Source of the DNA: Clostridia bacterium
GTDB lineage: Bacteria; Bacillota; Clostridia; Christensenellales; Borkfalkiaceae
Assembly (NCBI GenBank): GCA_028720205.1
Contig: JAQYLE010000004.1
Location: 1 to 64,000, forward strand
Length of the DNA: 64,000 nt
Direction of reading: 5' to 3'
In this document: one piece after another, positions 44,731-56,071 of the stretch
How positions within the stretch are numbered: position 1 is the first letter of the stretch
How the letters are laid out: every line of letters begins with the position of its first letter
Notes under the pieces: generated by a model
What the model was told of the DNA's origin: nothing
Databases searched by the model: none
Seen by the model: only the letters and a program-made list of their open reading frames with translations
Program-made: the position numbers and the translations under genes

Positions 44731-47700
44731 TTATGCGGCGCCGCCTTCGCCCTCCGTTTCGGCGGAGGATCCGGCGGAAGCATTGTAGTTCCATACGATC
44801 TTCGCGTCCATCTGATAGAACGGACCGCTGTAAGATTTATCCAGGAACGAGCCGAAACCGCTGTCGCTGTCGGTTGCCCACAGGTTATACACGTCCGCCG
44901 CGCCTGCTTCTACGTAAACGGTCTGTTCCGCCGTCCAGCCTTCGAAGGCAAACGCTACCGTTTCCAGCGAAGCGGGCAGAACGATCGACTTCAACGCCGT
45001 GCAGTAGTCAAACGCGCCCGAAGAAATCTTCGTCACCGTAGAGGGAATATTGACAGAGGCAAGGTTAACGCACCCGGAGAACCCGTCTATCGTCAACAAT
45101 CCTTCGGGCAAGATTACGGAAGTAAGCGCAACGCAGCCGGAGAACGCGCTGCTACCGATAGAGGTCAAGCCCTCGTTAAAGGTAACCTTGGCAAGGTTAG
45201 CGCAGCCGGAGAACGCGCTTCTACCGATAGCGGATATGCCTGCGGGAACGGTAATTTCCGTAAACGCCGCGCCGCGGAAGATACCCGAAGGCAATTCGGT
45301 AACGCTTGCGGGGATATTCACCGAAGCAAGTTTAACGCAACCGTCGAACATATAAGACGGCAATATTTCGGTATCGGGAAGAACCACGCTTTCCAGCGCC
45401 GTACAGCCGCTGAACATATTCTGCCCGAGGCTGGCGTTGGTGCCCAGAACAGCCGCGGTATTGCTTGTAAACTCAACTCTTGTAAGGTTCACGCAGTTGT
45501 AGAACACGCCGTCTTTAGCCGTTGCACTGCCGCCGAAGAACGTTTCCGAACCTTCGATTACAACGCTTTGCAGCGCGCTGCCTGCAAAGGCGGCGTCGCC
45601 GACGGTACGCGTTGATATCGAACTGCCGGAGGCATTTAACACAAGTCCGTTCAACGTAGCGGGAAGAATCACTTTTTCAAGTTTCGTATTCTGGAACGCA
45701 TATTTACCGATGAATTTCAGCGTTGCGGGGAATACGGAAGTTTTCAAAGCGGTTTCGCCTTCGGCAGCCGCTTCTTCCTCCGCGCCCGTATAAGTAATTT
45801 TCTTTAACCCGGTATTTTCAAACGCATTGGCGCCGATGCTTTCCGTCTGAGAAGAAAGCACTACTTCTTCCAGCGTGGTAAGTCCCTGGAACAACTTATC
45901 GGCAACCGACGTCATCGCTTCGGGCAGAACGATTTTCTTAACGTTGACGCAGCCGTCCAACGCGCCCGCGGCAATGGTATCGCCTTCCTGCAATTTCAGC
46001 GTATAATTTTCCATTTCAACGCCTGCGGGAACGCATACGATTGCGCCGTCCGCAGTATACAGCACGCCGTTCAGCGCTTTGTAATAACTGTTTGCGGAAT
46101 TCACGGTGATCTTAGCCAACTTCGCGCAACTGCCGAACGCCGCCGCGCCGATAGAACTTACGTTTTTAGAAATGCTTACGCTTTCCAGATTGGCGCAACC
46201 GTTAAACGCCGAAGCGCTAACGGTAAGTTTGCCGGTGGCGCTTGCCAACGTAGGCAATACCACCGAAGTCAGTCCGTCGCACCCCGCAAACGCTTCGGTG
46301 CCGATCGTCTTTAACGCCGTAAAGCCCTCCAGAGTAAAGTCAACTTCCGTTTTTTCCGTTCCGTTCACAACCGTCGCTTTCGCCAACGATACGCAATTAC
46401 GGAACGCATAGTCGTTAATTGCCGTAATATTAGGCAACGCCGTAGCATTCACCGTAATATTCGAAAGGCTTGTGCATCCGTCGAACATACCTTTGGCAAT
46501 AGAAGTTGCGGTAGCCTTCGATAAATCGATTGACTGTAAAGAGGTACAACCTGCAAAAGTGTATCTTCCAAAAGATTTTATCGCACCGTTGAATGTTACC
46601 GACTGCAATCTCACGCAATCGCGGAATATTTGTTCTCCGCTCAACGAAATTACTTTTGCAGGGAGCACAACGCTCGTCAAGCCTGCGCAACCCATAAACG
46701 CACCTTCGTTAATGGTGGCAAGCAAGGTCAGATTTTCCAGACTGAATGCCTCTGCGCCTTCTTCCGCATCCTCAGGCAACGCACTTACCAAAGAGGTGCA
46801 ATCACGGAACGCGTATTTATTTATTGTTGTTATCTTTGCGGCGTTCAGTTTTACGGTTGCCAGGTTAGCGCAGCCGTCGAAGAAATATTGCGGAACACCG
46901 GTAACGGTTGCTTTCGATAAATCAATCGAAGTAAGAGCGGAACATCCCGCGAACATATAGTTGCCGAGCGAAGTCATCGCCCCGTTGATTGTTACGCTTG
47001 TCAGCGCCGTACAATTCTGGAACACGTTTGTAGAGGCAGTTTTAATATTGGCGGGCAGATTAACCGAAGTAAGCGACGTACACCCCTTAAACATCGAGGA
47101 CGCCAAAGCCGTCAGCGTAGAAGACGTGGAGAAGATGACGCCGGTAATCGCCGTGCAGTTTTCGAAGTTGCTTTTATCGAACTTAGTGATCTGCGAAAGA
47201 TCGACTACCGGCGTTTCGCTTTCCGTCGCCCCCGCCGCAAGTACGCTGTTCAACGAGGTGCAATTCCGGAACAGATAAGAAGGCAACGACGTAATATTCG
47301 CGTTCAGCGTAACTTTTTGCAAAGCCGTGCAGTTTTCAAACGCATTCGAACCGAGTTGCTTATCCGTAACGTTCAAATCGACGTTTTCCAGCGACGTACA
47401 ATTCTGGAACGAATAGTTCTGTATCCATTGCACCGTGGAAGGAATATTGATATTTTTTAACGAAGTGCAGTAAGCGAACGAATAGCCGCCGCTGGAAGTA
47501 AGCGACTGCTTGCCCGACCGCTCGTAATACCCGATATTGGTAAGCCCTTCGGGAAGCGTCACCGTTTCCAAAGCCTTGCAGTTGTAGAACGCATATTTTT
47601 TAATCATCGTTACGTTCTTCGGAACGGCGATGGTTTTAAGCGATTTGCAGTTGTAGAAGGTGTATTCGTCGATTACCGTAACGCCGACGGGAATGGTTAT

Positions 47701-50700
47701 ATCCGTAAGCGAAACGCAGTTTCTGAACGCCGAAGCGCCGATTTTGGCAAGCGTGCTGTTGGTTTCAAACGTAACTTTCTTTAAGCCGAGGCAATCGTAA
47801 AACGCCTTTTCGCCGATTGTCATTACCGACTTGGGAATATAGATTTCCTTCAGCGTGGCTTTGCCCGCAAACGTGCTGGGGTTGATTGTGGTAACGCCGT
47901 CCTTCACGTTAAACGTGCCTTCCACGTCGCCGAGTATATATACCAACTCGGTTTGCTTTACGTTGTACAGCACCGCGCCGTCGGCTACGAAATAACCGCC
48001 TTCCGGAACGGTGATCTTTTTAATCGATCCGCAAAGGTCGAACACTTTGCTGATATCTTTCACCGTTTCGGAAAGGTTAATGGTAACAAGTTTCTTGCAG
48101 CCTTTAAACATTTCCTTACCCAACCCCAAATCACCCGCTACCAGCGGTTCCTTGGTGGAAGGGAAGGTGAACGAGGTAAGTCCCGTATTCAGGAAAGCCT
48201 GGTCGCCGATCGACCGCAACGAACTCTTGCCCGCTACCGCGCCCGTTTCTTCGTCGGTTTCCGCATACGTTGCAAACGTTACCGAAGTAAGGGCGGCGCA
48301 TCCTTCAAACGCGTTCTTCCCGATAGTCGTCAACGTGGCGGGAAGGCTGACGGAAGTCAGCGCTTTGCAGTTATAAAACGCGTTGCTTTCAATCGTTTGT
48401 AATTTGCTGTTTTCGCCGAAGTTTACCAAAGCAAGTTTTGAACAAGTAGTAAACGCGCGGCTCTTCAGCGTGGTCAGCGCGCTGTTGTTTCCGAAACTTA
48501 CTTCGGTAAGTTCGGGGGAATAAAACGCCTGTTCGTATACCGTTTCCAAAAGGCTGTTATCGGCAAACGTTATCTTGCTTACCGACGTATCGCCGAATAC
48601 GCCCCGCGTAGCCGACTTCTTCGTCGTCTGCTTGCCGTATTCGGTTACGCTGGCGGGAATATTTATCGCCGTTCCTGCGGGGAACTTCGCCCCTCTGAAC
48701 GCCTCCATACCTATCGTCGTAAGTCTTCCGGGCAGCGAAATCGCCGTCAGACCGCTATCGGTAAACGCGCCGTCGCCGATCTCGGTAAGGTTACAATCTT
48801 CGGCAAACGTCACCGTTTCCAGCCCCGAGCATTTGTAGAACGCAAACGTGCCGATTTTGGCAAGCCGTTTGGGGAACTGAACGGAGGTAAGCGAAACGCA
48901 ACTCTTCAATATTTTTGTGTTCGAAGCTGAACCGGTACCTTGATAATAATAGGAAAACACGCCTGTATATACGTCGGAACCGGAAGAACCGCTGGAAGAA
49001 CTACTGTACTCGCCGTCTTCCAGCGTAAGCGGGGTATCGTCGTTGCCCCCCTCAAACGTCAGATTGCTGAGCGATACGCACCCTTCGAACGCGCCCGCTT
49101 CTATCGAAGTAACGGTGTTGGGTACGACGATGCCGGTTAAGTCGCTGCAATCTTTAAACAGCCCTTTTACGATTTTGGTTAACCCTTGGGGCAATTCAAA
49201 CGTGGTCAGCGCGGAGGCTTTATACAGCGCTTTTTCGCCGATTTTAAAATCGCCCGCAAGCGCTCCGTCGAACTTCACTGTGGTTACGCCCGTATTCAGC
49301 GCGAACGCCTCATCGTATATCAACGTTAAGGTGTTAGGCAACAAAACTTCGCCCGCTTTTTTGAACGGACAGAAATACAGCGTCACCAGATTGCCGCTTT
49401 CGTCTTTGCCGTACAGCATACCGTCTTTCGAGGCGTAATGCTTGTTTCCGCTCGCCACCTCTACTTCTTCCAGGTTCTTGGAATAATAATTCGGGGTAGA
49501 GAATATGAAAGTGCTCTCCGATTTGAACAGATCCATCGAATCGAATTTATACGTGGTTACGCCGCTCTCGTCCGTGGTTTCCGTCCATTTACCCAGGCGC
49601 TCCACCGTGGAGGGGAAGGTAACTTTGGTTAAGTTTTCGCAATCGGAAAACGCGTAATTCCCCACAGACACAACGCCTTCGGGCAACGCGATCGTCTGCA
49701 ACTTATCCAAGCCGGCAAACGCCTTTTCGCCTATCGTTTTCAGCGCGCTGTTCGCGGCAAAATCAAACGTTACGATAGAATCGCAATTGTAGAACGCCAT
49801 ATCCCCCAGCGCGGTAACGCGTGCGGGCAGCGTAAACGATACGAACGAATCGCAGTCTTCAAACGCGCGCTCGCCTATCGTAAGCGGCTTTGCCGTTTCG
49901 CCTTCGGCAGGCTCGCCCCATACGATTTCCGCAAGGTTCGTACACCCTTTAAACGCCGCGTCCCCTATGGAGGTTACGTTATTGCCTATCGTTATCTTTG
50001 TTAAGCCTTTTCTTGCAACGAACACGTTCGCGCCGATTTTCGTAACCGTCGAAGGCACAACGTATTCGCCCTGTTTCCCTACGGGATAGTACAGTATCTC
50101 CGTCTTGCTCTTGGTTTCGTCTTCCGCGTTTTTATCGTAAATTACGCTCTCTTCTTCAAGATAATACTTGTTATCTTTATCCACGTTCACCGTGGCAAGT
50201 TTCGAAGAAGTACCGCCGAACGCGCCCGAAATATTGATGACGGACACGTCTTTGCCGATGATCAGCGTGGTTACCGTACTGTTTCCGGAGCCGGTAATTT
50301 CGCCCGTCGTAAAATTACGCGTAAACGAAGCGAACGCGCCGTCCGCAAACGATACCTCGCCGCTGCTCTTCACCGTTACCGTACTTAACGACGTATTTGA
50401 CGACGAGTTGTCGCCGAAAGCGTATTTGCCGATGGTGCGCACGTTCTCGGTTAAGGTAAGTTCCGTAATGTTGCAGCCGTAAAACGCCCGTTCCTTAATT
50501 TCCAGAGCGGCGTCCGCTTCTGTGCCCTCGAACGTAAGCGTTGCAAGATTCTCGCAATTTTCAAACGCCGATTCGCCGATTTCAACAATTCTGGCAGGGA
50601 CAATGAAAGTCGTGATTTTCTTATTTCCGTAAAACGCCTTGTCGGCAATCTTCGTAACGGAAGAAGGCAACGCAACTTCCGTTTCCGTACGGCCCTGCGC

Positions 50701-53700
50701 CCAATACAGCAACTCTGTTCCGTCGGCGTTTAACAGCAAGCCGTTCTCGGAAGAGGAATACAATCTCCCCGTAGAAACCGTGCCCGTAACGTAAATTTCC
50801 GACAGACGGTTGCAGCCGTAGAACGCCGAACGTTCGTACGCCCAGGTATAGTCATTCTTCTTTTCGCCGTTGAACAGCGTCATGTTCGTCAGACGGGCGG
50901 GCAACGTGATCTTCTTTATATTATAACTTGAAGCAAACGCTTTATCCGCGATGATAAGTTTTTCTTCAACGCCGTCTTCCGCCTGCAAAAATTCGATTTC
51001 CGTAAGCGAGGTGCACGATTTAAACGCGTTCATCGCTACGTAATTAACGCTTGCGGGTATTTTGATTACTTCTAATTTGCATCCGGTAAATACGTTCGCC
51101 GCAATCGTTTCCACGCCCGAGGGAATCGTGTATTCGCCCGTTCTCGCCAAGGGGAAGAACTGCAACGTTTTGCCCGCCGAATCGTTCTTCACAATAATTC
51201 CGTCCGTTTCGCCGTTGTCTTTTACGGGCGAATAGTATACGGGTTCAATCGTGCCTTCCACTTTGTAAATGTTTAAATTAAGAAGCCCCGTGCAACCTTC
51301 GAAAGCCGTGTTTTCGATATTGGCTATGCTTTCGGGAATGTTGATCGTCGTCAGGTTTTTCGCGTCTTTGAATGCGTACGCTTCCACCGTAGAAACGCGT
51401 TTGTTATTGTATTCGGTGGGAACGGTTACTTCCGTAAGATATTTAACGCCGTCCGCCTGCGTTACGCTATAACTGCCGTCGACAAGGCTTGCAAATTTAA
51501 ACACGTCCACCCATCTGGCTTCAAGCGTCTGGCCGGTTAAATATCTCCACACGTCTTTGCTTTCGCCGCGATGATCGGTAATCTGCGTGGTGCCGGCATA
51601 CCAGCCCATAAAGGCTTTATTCTTGTTATTGGAAGAGGGAACGGGTAATTCGAAGGCTTCTTTATACGACACCGTTGCGCCTGCGGACAAATCGTCGTCG
51701 CTGTAAGCGCCTTTGTTCAACACAACGTTGTATTGCTTCGGCGTCCATTTCGCGTACAGCGTTAAATCTTCCGCCGCGCCCAGCGTGGGTAACGTACCCG
51801 AAACTTCTTCGTATTTCGTTCCCGCGCCGTTCTGCCCGTTGTACCAGCCGCCAAAATCATATCCTTCAAAAATGCTTTCGGGCAAAGCGATGGAATCCCC
51901 CACCGCAACGTATGCGTCGTCGATTTTGCGTTCGTTTTCGCCTACGTCGTAACTTACGGTATACGCCGTAACTTTCTTTTCTATCCAGGCGGAAGCATTT
52001 CCTTTTTCGTCGTACGAACGCACGCGCAACGTGTTTTCGCCCGCTTTGGTCAGCGTAACGGCGGTGCCGACGTCCTTAACCTCCGTAATCGCGCCGTCGT
52101 TTACCTGCACTTCGTATTTTGCCACGCCGAAACCGGGATTCCACGATAAAAACCCTTTTTCGTAAGAAAGTTCGCCCGCGATTTTACCCGATTGCACCGT
52201 CAGCGTTTTGGTAAACAGAGAATTGCCTGCCGCCGCCGTATCTTTCGCGCTTACGGAAATGCCGTATTCCGTCTGCCCTTCCACGTAATCTTCCGCTTGC
52301 AACGTGTAACTGTTGGTAGTTACGTCGATTTCTTTTTCGCCGATCTTCACAACATACCCGTTCGCGCCGTCCACCGCCGTCCAGTTCAGCGTGTAACCGC
52401 TTACGGAGAGGTTCGCGGGCGTAGGCAGCGTGGCTTTCGTCCACTCTGTTTCGGCCGCGGGAGAATTGTTGTAGCCCTTTGCCACGGCAATAACTTTAAC
52501 GCTATAAGCGCCCTTTTCGTAACCGCGCAGATCGAACGACGTTTTGTCGCCTACGTTAATCGCGTCTCCGTCGTTTACCTGAACCAGATAATATTTAGCG
52601 TTTTCAACGGCGTCCCAACTCGCTTGCTGGGTAGAATCTTCCACCGCCAGATTCGTCGCCGCGTTCAGCGTTCTTTCAAACGACCAGGTTTCCGAAACGG
52701 AGGTAAGCATACCGTCGGCAACCGCTTTAACGGTGAAACGGATTCCTCCCGCTTGCATATCGCAATCGGAAAAATCGTAAAACGTAACGGGTTTGTTATC
52801 TTCGCCCACGCCCAGATCGATATCTTCGTGAGAATGTTCCGCCGTTCCGCATTCGATGGTAAGCAGATATTTTTCGGCGTTTTCCACGGCGTTGAACGTA
52901 AGAATCGAGGGAGAGTTTACGGCAAACGCGCTTACGCGCGCAAGCGCCTTGTTTTTATAATACGCCGTGGTTTCCGCGCTGCCGCACTTCACCGTTACCG
53001 TATATTCGCCCGCAGGTTGCGCCGAAAAATCAAACTCGCCGAATTCCGTTGAAGAAACTTTGCGGTTTTCTATGCCGCCGACGACTTTCCCTTCGGCGTC
53101 TTTAACGGTGAGTTCGTACGTTTTGTTTACGCCCAGAGAACTCCACGAGATTTTATTCGATTTTACGGATACCGCGATTTTTTCAGCGCTCTTCCATACG
53201 GGATACAATACGATGTTTTCCGCAATGGGCTCTTCCGCCTCGTATTGCGCGGTTAATTTATTTTTATCGTTATACGCACTTCGCCACCAGCCGAGGAATT
53301 CCTCGCCGTTTTCGCTTTCGGGCACAGGCAGATTGTACAACGTCTGATTGGTTGTAACGACAGGATACGTTCCTTCCTGCCCCCCCCCTGTGTAGCCGTC
53401 GAACGTTACGGAAAATTCCGTTTTGCCCAACAATTCGGCAAAACGCGCGTACAGCGTAATATTTTTGGTAACAGGCTGGTCGAAGGAATACTTTTCGTTA
53501 AACGCCGCGTCTTTATACCACCCCACGAAAACGTATTCTTTCCCCTGTTCTTCTTTTACGGGGTTGGCGGGCTTTGCAAGTTTCTTGCCGTTCAGAACTT
53601 TTTCGTCCTCTTTTGCCTCCCCGCCGTTCATTTCGAATTTTACCGTATATTCTACGTTTTTATAGAATTTATACGTTTTGTTCTGATATGTAAGGGTAAT

Positions 53701-54018
53701 CGTCGCGTCGTTGTACTTCGCTTCCAGCACCGTTCCGTCGGCGGCAACCAATCTCAGCGTAGTACCGTTGAACAGATACGTACCTTCGATCTTCGCGGAA
53801 CCGATTTTAACAGAGAACGCCGAATCGGTAAGATCAAACGTGTTTCTCGTTTCGCCTTCGTCCGCATAGTACGAGCCGATTTCTTCAAACGTCTTGTCGT
53901 ATCCGCTCGGCACTTCCGGCTCATTCGTTTTCTCTTTGCAGGCTACGCCGCCGGCAGTTGCGCCGATAACGAGCGAAAAGCACAACAATTTGAGAAATAA
54001 ATGCCTTTTGTCCTTCAT
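44731..54018 (-). CDS. Giant (about 3095 aa) BspA-like LRR_5 surface lipoprotein with N-terminal InlB-type repeats and FN3-like modules
   Basis: Lipobox AGGVAC; VKFEMNGGEAKEDEKVLNGK…FVGWYKDAAF; long array of about 23-aa LRR_5 units; RBS GGAGGTAACTAT-ATG at 54018. Confidence 0.9.
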   Translation of the reverse strand: MKDKRHLFLKLLCFSLVIGATAGGVACKEKTNEPEVPSGYDKTFEEIGSYYADEGETRNTFDLTDSAFSVKIGSAKIEGTYLFNGTTLRLVAADGTVLEAKYNDATITLTYQNKTYKFYKNVEYTVKFEMNGGEAKEDEKVLNGKKLAKPANPVKEEQGKEYVFVGWYKDAAFNEKYSFDQPVTKNITLYARFAELLGKTEFSVTFDGYTGGGQEGTYPVVTTNQTLYNLPVPESENGEEFLGWWRSAYNDKNKLTAQYEAEEPIAENIVLYPVWKSAEKIAVSVKSNKISWSSLGVNKTYELTVKDAEGKVVGGIENRKVSSTEFGEFDFSAQPAGEYTVTVKCGSAETTAYYKNKALARVSAFAVNSPSILTFNAVENAEKYLLTIECGTAEHSHEDIDLGVGEDNKPVTFYDFSDCDMQAGGIRFTVKAVADGMLTSVSETWSFERTLNAATNLAVEDSTQQASWDAVENAKYYLVQVNDGDAINVGDKTSFDLRGYEKGAYSVKVIAVAKGYNNSPAAETEWTKATLPTPANLSVSGYTLNWTAVDGANGYVVKIGEKEIDVTTNSYTLQAEDYVEGQTEYGISVSAKDTAAAGNSLFTKTLTVQSGKIAGELSYEKGFLSWNPGFGVAKYEVQVNDGAITEVKDVGTAVTLTKAGENTLRVRSYDEKGNASAWIEKKVTAYTVSYDVGENERKIDDAYVAVGDSIALPESIFEGYDFGGWYNGQNGAGTKYEEVSGTLPTLGAAEDLTLYAKWTPKQYNVVLNKGAYSDDDLSAGATVSYKEAFELPVPSSNNKNKAFMGWYAGTTQITDHRGESKDVWRYLTGQTLEARWVDVFKFASLVDGSYSVTQADGVKYLTEVTVPTEYNNKRVSTVEAYAFKDAKNLTTINIPESIANIENTAFEGCTGLLNLNIYKVEGTIEPVYYSPVKDNGETDGIIVKNDSAGKTLQFFPLARTGEYTIPSGVETIAANVFTGCKLEVIKIPASVNYVAMNAFKSCTSLTEIEFLQAEDGVEEKLIIADKAFASSYNIKKITLPARLTNMTLFNGEKKNDYTWAYERSAFYGCNRLSEIYVTGTVSTGRLYSSSENGLLLNADGTELLYWAQGRTETEVALPSSVTKIADKAFYGNKKITTFIVPARIVEIGESAFENCENLATLTFEGTEADAALEIKERAFYGCNITELTLTENVRTIGKYAFGDNSSSNTSLSTVTVKSSGEVSFADGAFASFTRNFTTGEITGSGNSTVTTLIIGKDVSVINISGAFGGTSSKLATVNVDKDNKYYLEEESVIYDKNAEDETKSKTEILYYPVGKQGEYVVPSTVTKIGANVFVARKGLTKITIGNNVTSIGDAAFKGCTNLAEIVWGEPAEGETAKPLTIGERAFEDCDSFVSFTLPARVTALGDMAFYNCDSIVTFDFAANSALKTIGEKAFAGLDKLQTIALPEGVVSVGNYAFSDCENLTKVTFPSTVERLGKWTETTDESGVTTYKFDSMDLFKSESTFIFSTPNYYSKNLEEVEVASGNKHYASKDGMLYGKDESGNLVTLYFCPFKKAGEVLLPNTLTLIYDEAFALNTGVTTVKFDGALAGDFKIGEKALYKASALTTFELPQGLTKIVKGLFKDCSDLTGIVVPNTVTSIEAGAFEGCVSLSNLTFEGGNDDTPLTLEDGEYSSSSSGSSGSDVYTGVFSYYYQGTGSASNTKILKSCVSLTSVQFPKRLAKIGTFAFYKCSGLETVTFAEDCNLTEIGDGAFTDSGLTAISLPGRLTTIGMEAFRGAKFPAGTAINIPASVTEYGKQTTKKSATRGVFGDTSVSKITFADNSLLETVYEQAFYSPELTEVSFGNNSALTTLKSRAFTTCSKLALVNFGENSKLQTIESNAFYNCKALTSVSLPATLTTIGKNAFEGCAALTSVTFATYAETDEETGAVAGKSSLRSIGDQAFLNTGLTSFTFPSTKEPLVAGDLGLGKEMFKGCKKLVTINLSETVKDISKVFDLCGSIKKITVPEGGYFVADGAVLYNVKQTELVYILGDVEGTFNVKDGVTTINPSTFAGKATLKEIYIPKSVMTIGEKAFYDCLGLKKVTFETNSTLAKIGASAFRNCVSLTDITIPVGVTVIDEYTFYNCKSLKTIAVPKNVTMIKKYAFYNCKALETVTLPEGLTNIGYYERSGKQSLTSSGGYSFAYCTSLKNINIPSTVQWIQNYSFQNCTSLENVDLNVTDKQLGSNAFENCTALQKVTLNANITSLPSYLFRNCTSLNSVLAAGATESETPVVDLSQITKFDKSNFENCTAITGVIFSTSSTLTALASSMFKGCTSLTSVNLPANIKTASTNVFQNCTALTSVTINGAMTSLGNYMFAGCSALTSIDLSKATVTGVPQYFFDGCANLATVKLNAAKITTINKYAFRDCTSLVSALPEDAEEGAEAFSLENLTLLATINEGAFMGCAGLTSVVLPAKVISLSGEQIFRDCVRLQSVTFNGAIKSFGRYTFAGCTSLQSIDLSKATATSIAKGMFDGCTSLSNITVNATALPNITAINDYAFRNCVSLAKATVVNGTEKTEVDFTLEGFTALKTIGTEAFAGCDGLTSVVLPTLASATGKLTVSASAFNGCANLESVSISKNVSSIGAAAFGSCAKLAKITVNSANSYYKALNGVLYTADGAIVCVPAGVEMENYTLKLQEGDTIAAGALDGCVNVKKIVLPEAMTSVADKLFQGLTTLEEVVLSSQTESIGANAFENTGLKKITYTGAEEEAAAEGETALKTSVFPATLKFIGKYAFQNTKLEKVILPATLNGLVLNASGSSISTRTVGDAAFAGSALQSVVIEGSETFFGGSATAKDGVFYNCVNLTRVEFTSNTAAVLGTNASLGQNMFSGCTALESVVLPDTEILPSYMFDGCVKLASVNIPASVTELPSGIFRGAAFTEITVPAGISAIGRSAFSGCANLAKVTFNEGLTSIGSSAFSGCVALTSVILPEGLLTIDGFSGCVNLASVNIPSTVTKISSGAFDYCTALKSIVLPASLETVAFAFEGWTAEQTVYVEAGAADVYNLWATDSDSGFGSFLDKSYSGPFYQMDAKIVWNYNASAGSSAETEGEGGAA
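45132..45231 (-). repeat. Near-identical LRR-coding DNA repeats with 69-nt period
   Basis: cgcagccggagaacgcgct at 45132 and again at 45201, each followed by (g/t)ctaccgatag. Confidence 0.8.
46500..47010 (-). repeat. Higher-order super-repeat (period 396 nt, 132 aa) in LRR array
   Basis: ttcgataaatc at 46517 and 46913; parallel protein blocks SIDLSKATATS…FDGC…INDYAFRNC and SIDLSKATVTG…FDGC…INKYAFRDC. Confidence 0.65.
53380..53388 (-). repeat. G9 homopolymer (C9 on + strand) inside giant surface-protein ORF
   Basis: tgcccccccccctg-type run at 53380-53388, encoding Gly-Gly-Gly in DGYTGGGQEG. Confidence 0.85.
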
Positions 54019-54160
54019 ATAGTTACCTCCGTCAATTACTTTCGATTTTTGGCGTTTCACGGCGCACGTATAATCGTTTTTATAAATGGATATGATTCAA
54101 TAAAACGATATGCCTCGCCTTTAAAACGAAAAAATATAGAATCTTGGTATTTTACATTTT

Positions 54161-54325: not shown

Positions 54326-54354
54326 TTGACAAATCGATTTTTTTGTGATAAAAT
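54326..54354 (+). promoter_or_regulatory. Sigma-A-type promoter of the trpB leader
   Basis: TTGACA (54326-54331), 17 bp, TAAAAT (54349-54354). Confidence 0.8.
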
Positions 54355-54405
54355 GTTTACGATAATTATAATTTCAGCGGAAGAACCGCGGAAAAGGAAA
54401 GTACC

Positions 54406-54471
54406 ATGAGTAATGTTTTCGGCAACAAAGCGCTTTGGCGCGGCAATCGTATCCTCGGCCATATTCGTTGA
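54406..54471 (+). CDS. Putative Trp-containing leader peptide MSNVFGNKALWRGNRILGHIR
   Basis: ATG with AAGGA 6-7 nt upstream, 21 codons, single TGG at codon 11, TGA directly abutting the antiterminator arm. Confidence 0.65.
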   Translation: MSNVFGNKALWRGNRILGHIR

Positions 54472-54558
54472 TACCGGTTTTTTTCGTTGCGCGAAAAAAT
54501 CATTGCATTGATTCAGTTATAATTCGACCGGTAGCAAGCGCGATCGGTCGATTTTTTT
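54472..54558 (+). promoter_or_regulatory. Putative attenuator: antiterminator TACCGGT(54472-54478)/ACCGGTA(54527-54533) versus terminator CGACCG(54525-54530)/CGGTCG(54545-54550)+T7
   Basis: Mutually exclusive complementary segments; T run 54552-54558. Confidence 0.7.
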
Positions 54559-54624
54559 ATACTTTTTTTCTTTCGTTACGACTGCCGCGTTTACGAAACA
54601 AAAAAACAGACAAAAAATTTACCG

Positions 54625-54637
54625 CCCCCCCCCCCCC
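54625..54637 (+). repeat. C13 homopolymer in trpB leader
   Basis: 13 consecutive C residues between attenuator and trpB RBS. Confidence 0.85.
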
Positions 54638-54685
54638 GCGTTTGTATATCGGCAAAACACTAAAAAAACAAAAGGAGCAACAGAT

Positions 54686-56071
54686 ATGAAAGCAACAGAC
54701 AAGAAAATTCCCTACAAAATTTACCTCGACGAAAACGAACTTCCCCGCGCGTGGTACGATCTGAGGGCGGATATGAAAAACAAACCCGCGCCTCTTCTCA
54801 ACCCCGCAACGCATAAACCCGTTACGCCGGAAGAATTAGAGCACGTGTTCTGCCGCGATCTTGCCATGCAGGAACTTTGCGATACGCAAAGATACGTGCC
54901 CATTCCCGAAGAAATTCTGAATTTTTATAAAATGTACCGTCCGTCGCCGCTCGTACGCGCGTACTGTCTGGAAGAAAAACTCGGCACTCCCGCCGAAATT
55001 TATTATAAATTCGAAGGCAACAACACCAGCGGAAGCCACAAACTGAATTCAGCCATCGCGCAGGCTTACTATGCCAAAAAACAGGGACTGAAAGGCGTTA
55101 CCACCGAAACGGGCGCGGGGCAATGGGGCACGGCGCTTTCGATGGCTTGCGCGTATTTCGGGCTGGATTGCCAAGTGTATATGGTGAAAGTTTCTTACGA
55201 ACAGAAGCCGCACCGCCGCGAAGTGATGCGCACCTACGGCGCAACCGTAACCCCCTCCCCTTCCGAAACGACGGAAGTAGGCAGAAAAATTTTAAAAGAG
55301 TTTCCGGGCACGACGGGCAGCCTCGGTTGCGCCATTTCCGAAGCGGTGGAAGCCGCCGAAACCACGGAAGGCTACCGCTACGTACTCGGCAGCGTTTTAT
55401 GCCAGGTATCGCTCCATCAATCGATTATCGGGCTGGAAACCAAAACCGCGCTGGAAAAATACGGCGTTAAACCCGACGTCATCATCGGTTGTGCGGGCGG
55501 AGGTTCTAATTTAAGCGGCCTTATCGCGCCGTTCATGGGCGAAAAACTGCGCGGCGAGGCAGATTATAAATTCATCGCCGTAGAACCGGCGTCCTGTCCT
55601 TCGCTTTCCCGCGGAAAATTCGCGTACGATTTCTGCGATACGGGCAAGGTGTGTCCGCTTGCCAGAATGTATACGCTGGGAAGCGGTTTTATCCCCGCGC
55701 CCAACCACGCGGGCGGCTTGCGCTATCACGGCATGTCGCCCATCTTATCCCAACTGTACCACGACGGCTATCTCGAAGCGGTTACGGCGGTGCAGACGGA
55801 CGTGTTCGGGGCCGCGGAGTATTTCGCGCGCGTTGAAGGAATTTTACCCGCGCCGGAAAGTTCGCACGCCATTAAAGCGGCAATCGATCAGGCGCTGGAA
55901 TGCAAAAAGACGGGCGAAAAGAAAGTTATCGTTTTCGGCTTGACCGGAACGGGTTATTTCGACATGACCGCTTACCGGAAATACAACGACGGCGCGATGA
56001 GCGACTATATTCCCACCGACGAGGAAATAGGAAAAAGCACTTCCTCTATGCCTTGCGTGGAAGAAGACTGA
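54686..56071 (+). CDS. trpB: Tryptophan synthase beta chain, TrpB2-type
   Basis: RPSPLVRAYCLEEKLGTPAEIYYKFEGNNTSGSHKLNSA (PLP Lys), TETGAGQWGTAL, CAGGGSNLSGL; RBS AAAGGAG. Confidence 0.93.
   Translation: MKATDKKIPYKIYLDENELPRAWYDLRADMKNKPAPLLNPATHKPVTPEELEHVFCRDLAMQELCDTQRYVPIPEEILNFYKMYRPSPLVRAYCLEEKLGTPAEIYYKFEGNNTSGSHKLNSAIAQAYYAKKQGLKGVTTETGAGQWGTALSMACAYFGLDCQVYMVKVSYEQKPHRREVMRTYGATVTPSPSETTEVGRKILKEFPGTTGSLGCAISEAVEAAETTEGYRYVLGSVLCQVSLHQSIIGLETKTALEKYGVKPDVIIGCAGGGSNLSGLIAPFMGEKLRGEADYKFIAVEPASCPSLSRGKFAYDFCDTGKVCPLARMYTLGSGFIPAPNHAGGLRYHGMSPILSQLYHDGYLEAVTAVQTDVFGAAEYFARVEGILPAPESSHAIKAAIDQALECKKTGEKKVIVFGLTGTGYFDMTAYRKYNDGAMSDYIPTDEEIGKSTSSMPCVEED

Follow-up and report, generated by a model that had tools for sequence, protein, structure and literature searches.

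What governs transcription of trpB2 in a clostridial genome, in which this gene is not preceded by the T-box that most of its relatives bear? The gene lies in a stretch of 64,000 nucleotides (hereafter the window; positions 1 to 64,000 of contig JAQYLE010000004.1, Borkfalkiaceae), downstream of a short leader with its own promoter, a small ORF and a terminator. Based on RNA folding, this leader is probably a ribosome-mediated transcription attenuator that senses the supply of Trp-tRNA ahead of trpB2.

Anatomy of the leader

All elements of the leader reside on the forward strand. The strong promoter (54326–54354) combines TTGACA (54326–54331) and TAAAAT (54349–54354) at a spacing of 17 nucleotides, scores 11/12, and bears a TG preceding the −10 element. 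A Shine–Dalgarno sequence AAGGAA (54394–54399) is followed by an ORF of 21 codons (MSNVFGNKALWRGNRILGHIR*, 54406–54471, ending with TGA at 54469–54471), whose lone Trp codon is the TGG at 54436–54438 (W11). An overlapping ORF from ATG 54413 was dropped, as its Shine–Dalgarno spacing reads as poor.

Three arms and a terminator provide for alternative pairings. Arm 1, the protector (AATCGTATC, 54445–54453), pairs with 54470–54479—AATC-GTATC with GATAC-C-GGTT—and arm 2 (TACCGGT, 54472–54478) can have either arm 1 or arm 3 as its partner. Arm 3 (ACCGGTA, 54527–54533) in turn forms the antiterminator or the 5′ side of the intrinsic terminator (54524–54558), which is located between the leader ORF and trpB2 and consists of a hairpin (54524–54551) and a T7 run (54552–54558). 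The hairpin comprises 9 bp (54524–54532/54543–54551) plus 2 inner GC pairs, at about −16 kcal/mol. A sequence-only reading of this DNA had already placed promoter, ribosome-binding site, ORF with its single TGG and TGA, arms, and T7 at these positions; terminator and protector turn out to be stronger and longer, respectively, than it had claimed. Compared with chance, the leader fold has a z of −2.86. ACCGGT is a palindrome, which makes a chance match between arms 2 and 3 easier.

The stretch from 54558 to trpB2 was scanned for promoter-like sites and holds none, and, hence, trpB2 should rely on read-through of the terminator. The 5′ untranslated region of trpB2 also contains a run of 13 C (54625–54637)—one of two C/G runs of at least 8 within 318 kb of the same genome—that is possibly a slippage site or an assembly error. 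Running divergently from the trpB2 promoter, a gene on the reverse strand (44731–54060) encodes a BspA-type protein of 3109 aa with leucine-rich repeats and a Listeria-Bacteroides repeat.

A predicted RNA switch

If the leader acts as an attenuator, a ribosome translating the ORF under plentiful Trp would clear W11 and reach the stop codon; arm 2 would be covered or held by arm 1, arm 3 would pair with arm 4, and transcription would stop at 54558. Under scarce Trp, the ribosome would halt at W11 and mask arm 1, arm 2 would join arm 3, and, with no terminator formed, trpB2 would be transcribed—its enzyme presumably making Trp from indole and serine.

This switch was probed in a stall scan, in which the equilibrium probability of the terminator was calculated for a ribosome placed with its A site at each leader codon in turn and the covered bases—up to position +15 relative to the first P-site base, repeated with +16—set unpaired. 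In this equilibrium folding, which ignores kinetics and uses one energy-parameter set, the terminator probability is 0.975 without a ribosome. With the +15 footprint it amounts to 0.82–0.96 at K8 to L10, drops to 0.59 at W11, 0.004 at R12, and 0.003 at G13, and returns to 0.91 at N14 and 0.97 from R15 through the stop codon; with the +16 footprint, it is 0.01, 0.00, and 0.01 at W11, R12, and G13. The antiterminator—in a Trp attenuator favored only by a stall at the Trp codon—is predicted to be favored at codons 11–13, with W11 at the edge of this interval: its flip is partial at +15 and full only at +16, and stalls at R12 and G13 flip the RNA fully with the +15 footprint. The switch is lost when arm 2 is mutated in silico. 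Disruption of arm 1, on the other side, leaves the fold without ribosome unchanged, because other upstream pairs form, and the role of the 1:2 pairing is therefore less clear-cut than that of 2:3 versus 3:4. Overall, folding supports the 1:2/2:3/3:4 logic proposed by the sequence-only reading.

Such switching is rare by chance. When the terminator was kept fixed and 54439–54523 was shuffled with dinucleotides preserved (n = 1000), 8/1000 shuffles switched (terminator P < 0.1) at codons 11–13 and 0/1000 did so with a sharp profile. The 516 terminator-like hairpins within 318 kb of this genome yield 16 uORF–terminator pairs, of which the window leader is the only one that switches. A further hallmark, tandem Trp codons, is absent with a single TGG; tandem codons are typical of characterized trp attenuators, and the mechanism does not require them. 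One Trp codon had been called unusual at the outset; in Actinobacteria, trp leaders contain two or three (PMC1262725).

The trpB2 gene and its origin

Behind a Shine–Dalgarno sequence AAGGAG (54672–54677), trpB2 (54686–56071, forward strand) encodes a TrpB-like PLP-dependent enzyme of 461 aa that matches NF009057 with 669 bits and TIGR01415 with 575 bits, both past the cutoff. The gene had been named trpB before; it is indeed tryptophan-synthase-like, but as a stand-alone gene of the trpB2 type rather than the trpB of a trp operon. No IGPS is found in this genome (96% complete), whereas 14/14 control genomes are positive, and because of this missing enzyme trpB2 probably serves indole salvage. 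The only T-box match of the genome (L200, G000:C31:14274–14513) reaches 57 bits, below the gathering score, and precedes a gene that reads by its sequence as thrS.

A tree of TrpB2 proteins separates the window protein from the genus clade of 36 rows (support 100), on a long branch and with an unsure placement. The contig itself belongs to the genus, since the neighboring tyrS shares 93% identity with its counterpart in genome G003 and 79–86% with those of most other genus members. G003, the nearest sister, is devoid of trpB2 and bears a different gene at that site, before trmO, apparently the end of a MATE-type transporter by its sequence. The position outside the genus clade and the different gene in G003 suggest that the window species probably acquired trpB2 horizontally.

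Leaders of trpB2 in relatives

Does the leader recur where trpB2 does? The gene is found in 38/57 genomes of the genus and 191/398 of the family, but a promoter–uORF–terminator leader of the window type occurs in 0/205 other trpB2 upstream regions (genus, family, order, class, and GTDB). A DNA search of the 398 family genomes with the leader returned short matches only (<60 bases), which fell largely within the AT-rich promoter portion and never spanned the leader; no Rfam family matches it, and the T-box model RF00230 does not do so even at E ≤ 5. The closest TrpB2 proteins are only 81–82% identical to that of the window, and no homologous leader was found in which conservation of ORF or pairing could be compared.

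Occurrence in a single genome, with no relative found to carry the leader, speaks against an attenuator, as do the one Trp codon, the position of W11 at the edge, and the palindromic arms. An independent small transcription unit, with promoter and terminator, for a small RNA or a 21-aa protein would fit the palindromic arms, the lone Trp codon, and the lack of conservation seen for the leader; trpB2 would then be expressed through constitutive read-through or a weak promoter that escaped notice, and the pairing would be coincidental. We regard this as unlikely, since the switch is rare among shuffles and unique in 318 kb, no promoter-like site follows the terminator, and a Trp codon sits at the switching position before a Trp-making gene.

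For the relatives, T-boxes were counted by searching for their core sequence, which is present upstream of trpB2 in 122/178 regions and in a further 25/28 from order and class. The Rfam T-box model confirms 12/12 relatives tried (E 5e-30 to 6e-13), 8/12 of which exceed the gathering score. The specifier region, read by eye, is GAATGGACTT, that is, TGG. In several other members of the genus, trpB2 is preceded by no more than a short promoter region. Since Trp T-boxes precede most relatives of trpB2, this gene is as a rule under Trp control. This, together with the likely product of the gene being Trp, weighs against a leader-peptide attenuator whose signal is not Trp but general starvation, a shortage of Arg or Gly, or slow translation. 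The single Trp codon would suit such a device, and so would the stalls at R12 and G13, which flip the RNA too and at +15 leave a lower terminator probability than W11; all in all, we consider it improbable.

A second type of Trp-containing uORF emerges from these leaders. Between T-box and trpB2, 23 leaders with a Trp T-box also contain a conserved [F/K]RWR-type uORF (L003, L006, L007, L009, L016, L020, L023, L030, L034, L035, L067, L068, L073, L074, L077, L085, L088, L090, L096, L099, L138, L177, and L230), in most cases with a Shine–Dalgarno site. The core is of a W-R type, mostly FRWR, with KRWR in L067, L138, and L177, RLWRG in L068, YWWRC in L230, and one-residue variants in L003, L030, L077, and L099. 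The Arg codon before Trp varies between CGA, AGA, AGG, and CGG, which suggests that selection acts on the peptide. A shared Shine–Dalgarno-sequestering fold was looked for among the FRWR uORFs and none was found. In L008, the uORF (ATGTTACAAAATC...CCGATGACGG) carries a TGA in place of the TGG seen elsewhere—possibly by decay or as a stop replacing Trp. It is conceivable, if rather doubtful, that single-Trp uORFs of this kind ([F/K]RWR, LWRG, WWR) represent a clostridial Trp-sensing class at trpB2, normally 3′ of a T-box and partly acting via the nascent peptide, with the window leader as a T-box-free version that bears its own terminator.

TnaC arrests at high Trp, giving antitermination. A TnaC-like arrest peptide sensing free Trp via its nascent chain, which the sequence-only reading had offered as an alternative, would profit from the single Trp followed by Arg and from the amino-acid-level constraint around Trp in the [F/K]RWR-type uORFs, but its sign is wrong for a Trp-making gene and no conservation of the leader sequence was found, making it highly improbable.

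Comparison with known systems

The proposed Trp attenuator shares with Escherichia coli trpL—which has two Trp codons—the promoter, a short Trp-codon ORF, the mutually exclusive 1:2/2:3/3:4 pairing, an intrinsic terminator, and a Trp-making gene next to it. It differs by its one Trp codon, the stand-alone trpB2, a genome without IGPS, and the clostridial host. A leader-peptide attenuator before Trp salvage genes has likewise been predicted for trpRBA of Chlamydia trachomatis (Merino and Yanofsky 2005, in PMC6504234), for which, according to the latter source, firm experimental proof is lacking; in Chlamydia, however, other regulators also act. The at (rtpA) operon of Bacillus subtilis, as cited in PMC11255114 (Chen and Yanofsky 2003, 2004), combines a T-box with a Trp-codon leader peptide. 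Hereby, a Trp-codon uORF is tied to Trp control as well, but the control is translational and joined to a T-box, and the operon hence resembles the [F/K]RWR loci rather than the window leader.

A leader peptide where relatives have a T-box is known in Firmicutes from hisS*/hisZ of bacilli (PMC2965389), with His codons in place of the Trp codon, trpB2, and single genome of the window. This kind of swap is thus known from His genes and the mechanism is an established one, while this trpB2 copy is new, with no relatives so far. If the attenuator holds true, it would mark a swap of the sensing device—an acquired trpB2 under ribosome stalling, versus the relatives' T-box that reads uncharged tRNA—and would hint at a single Trp codon being enough and at leader-peptide attenuation being able to emerge anew in Clostridia.
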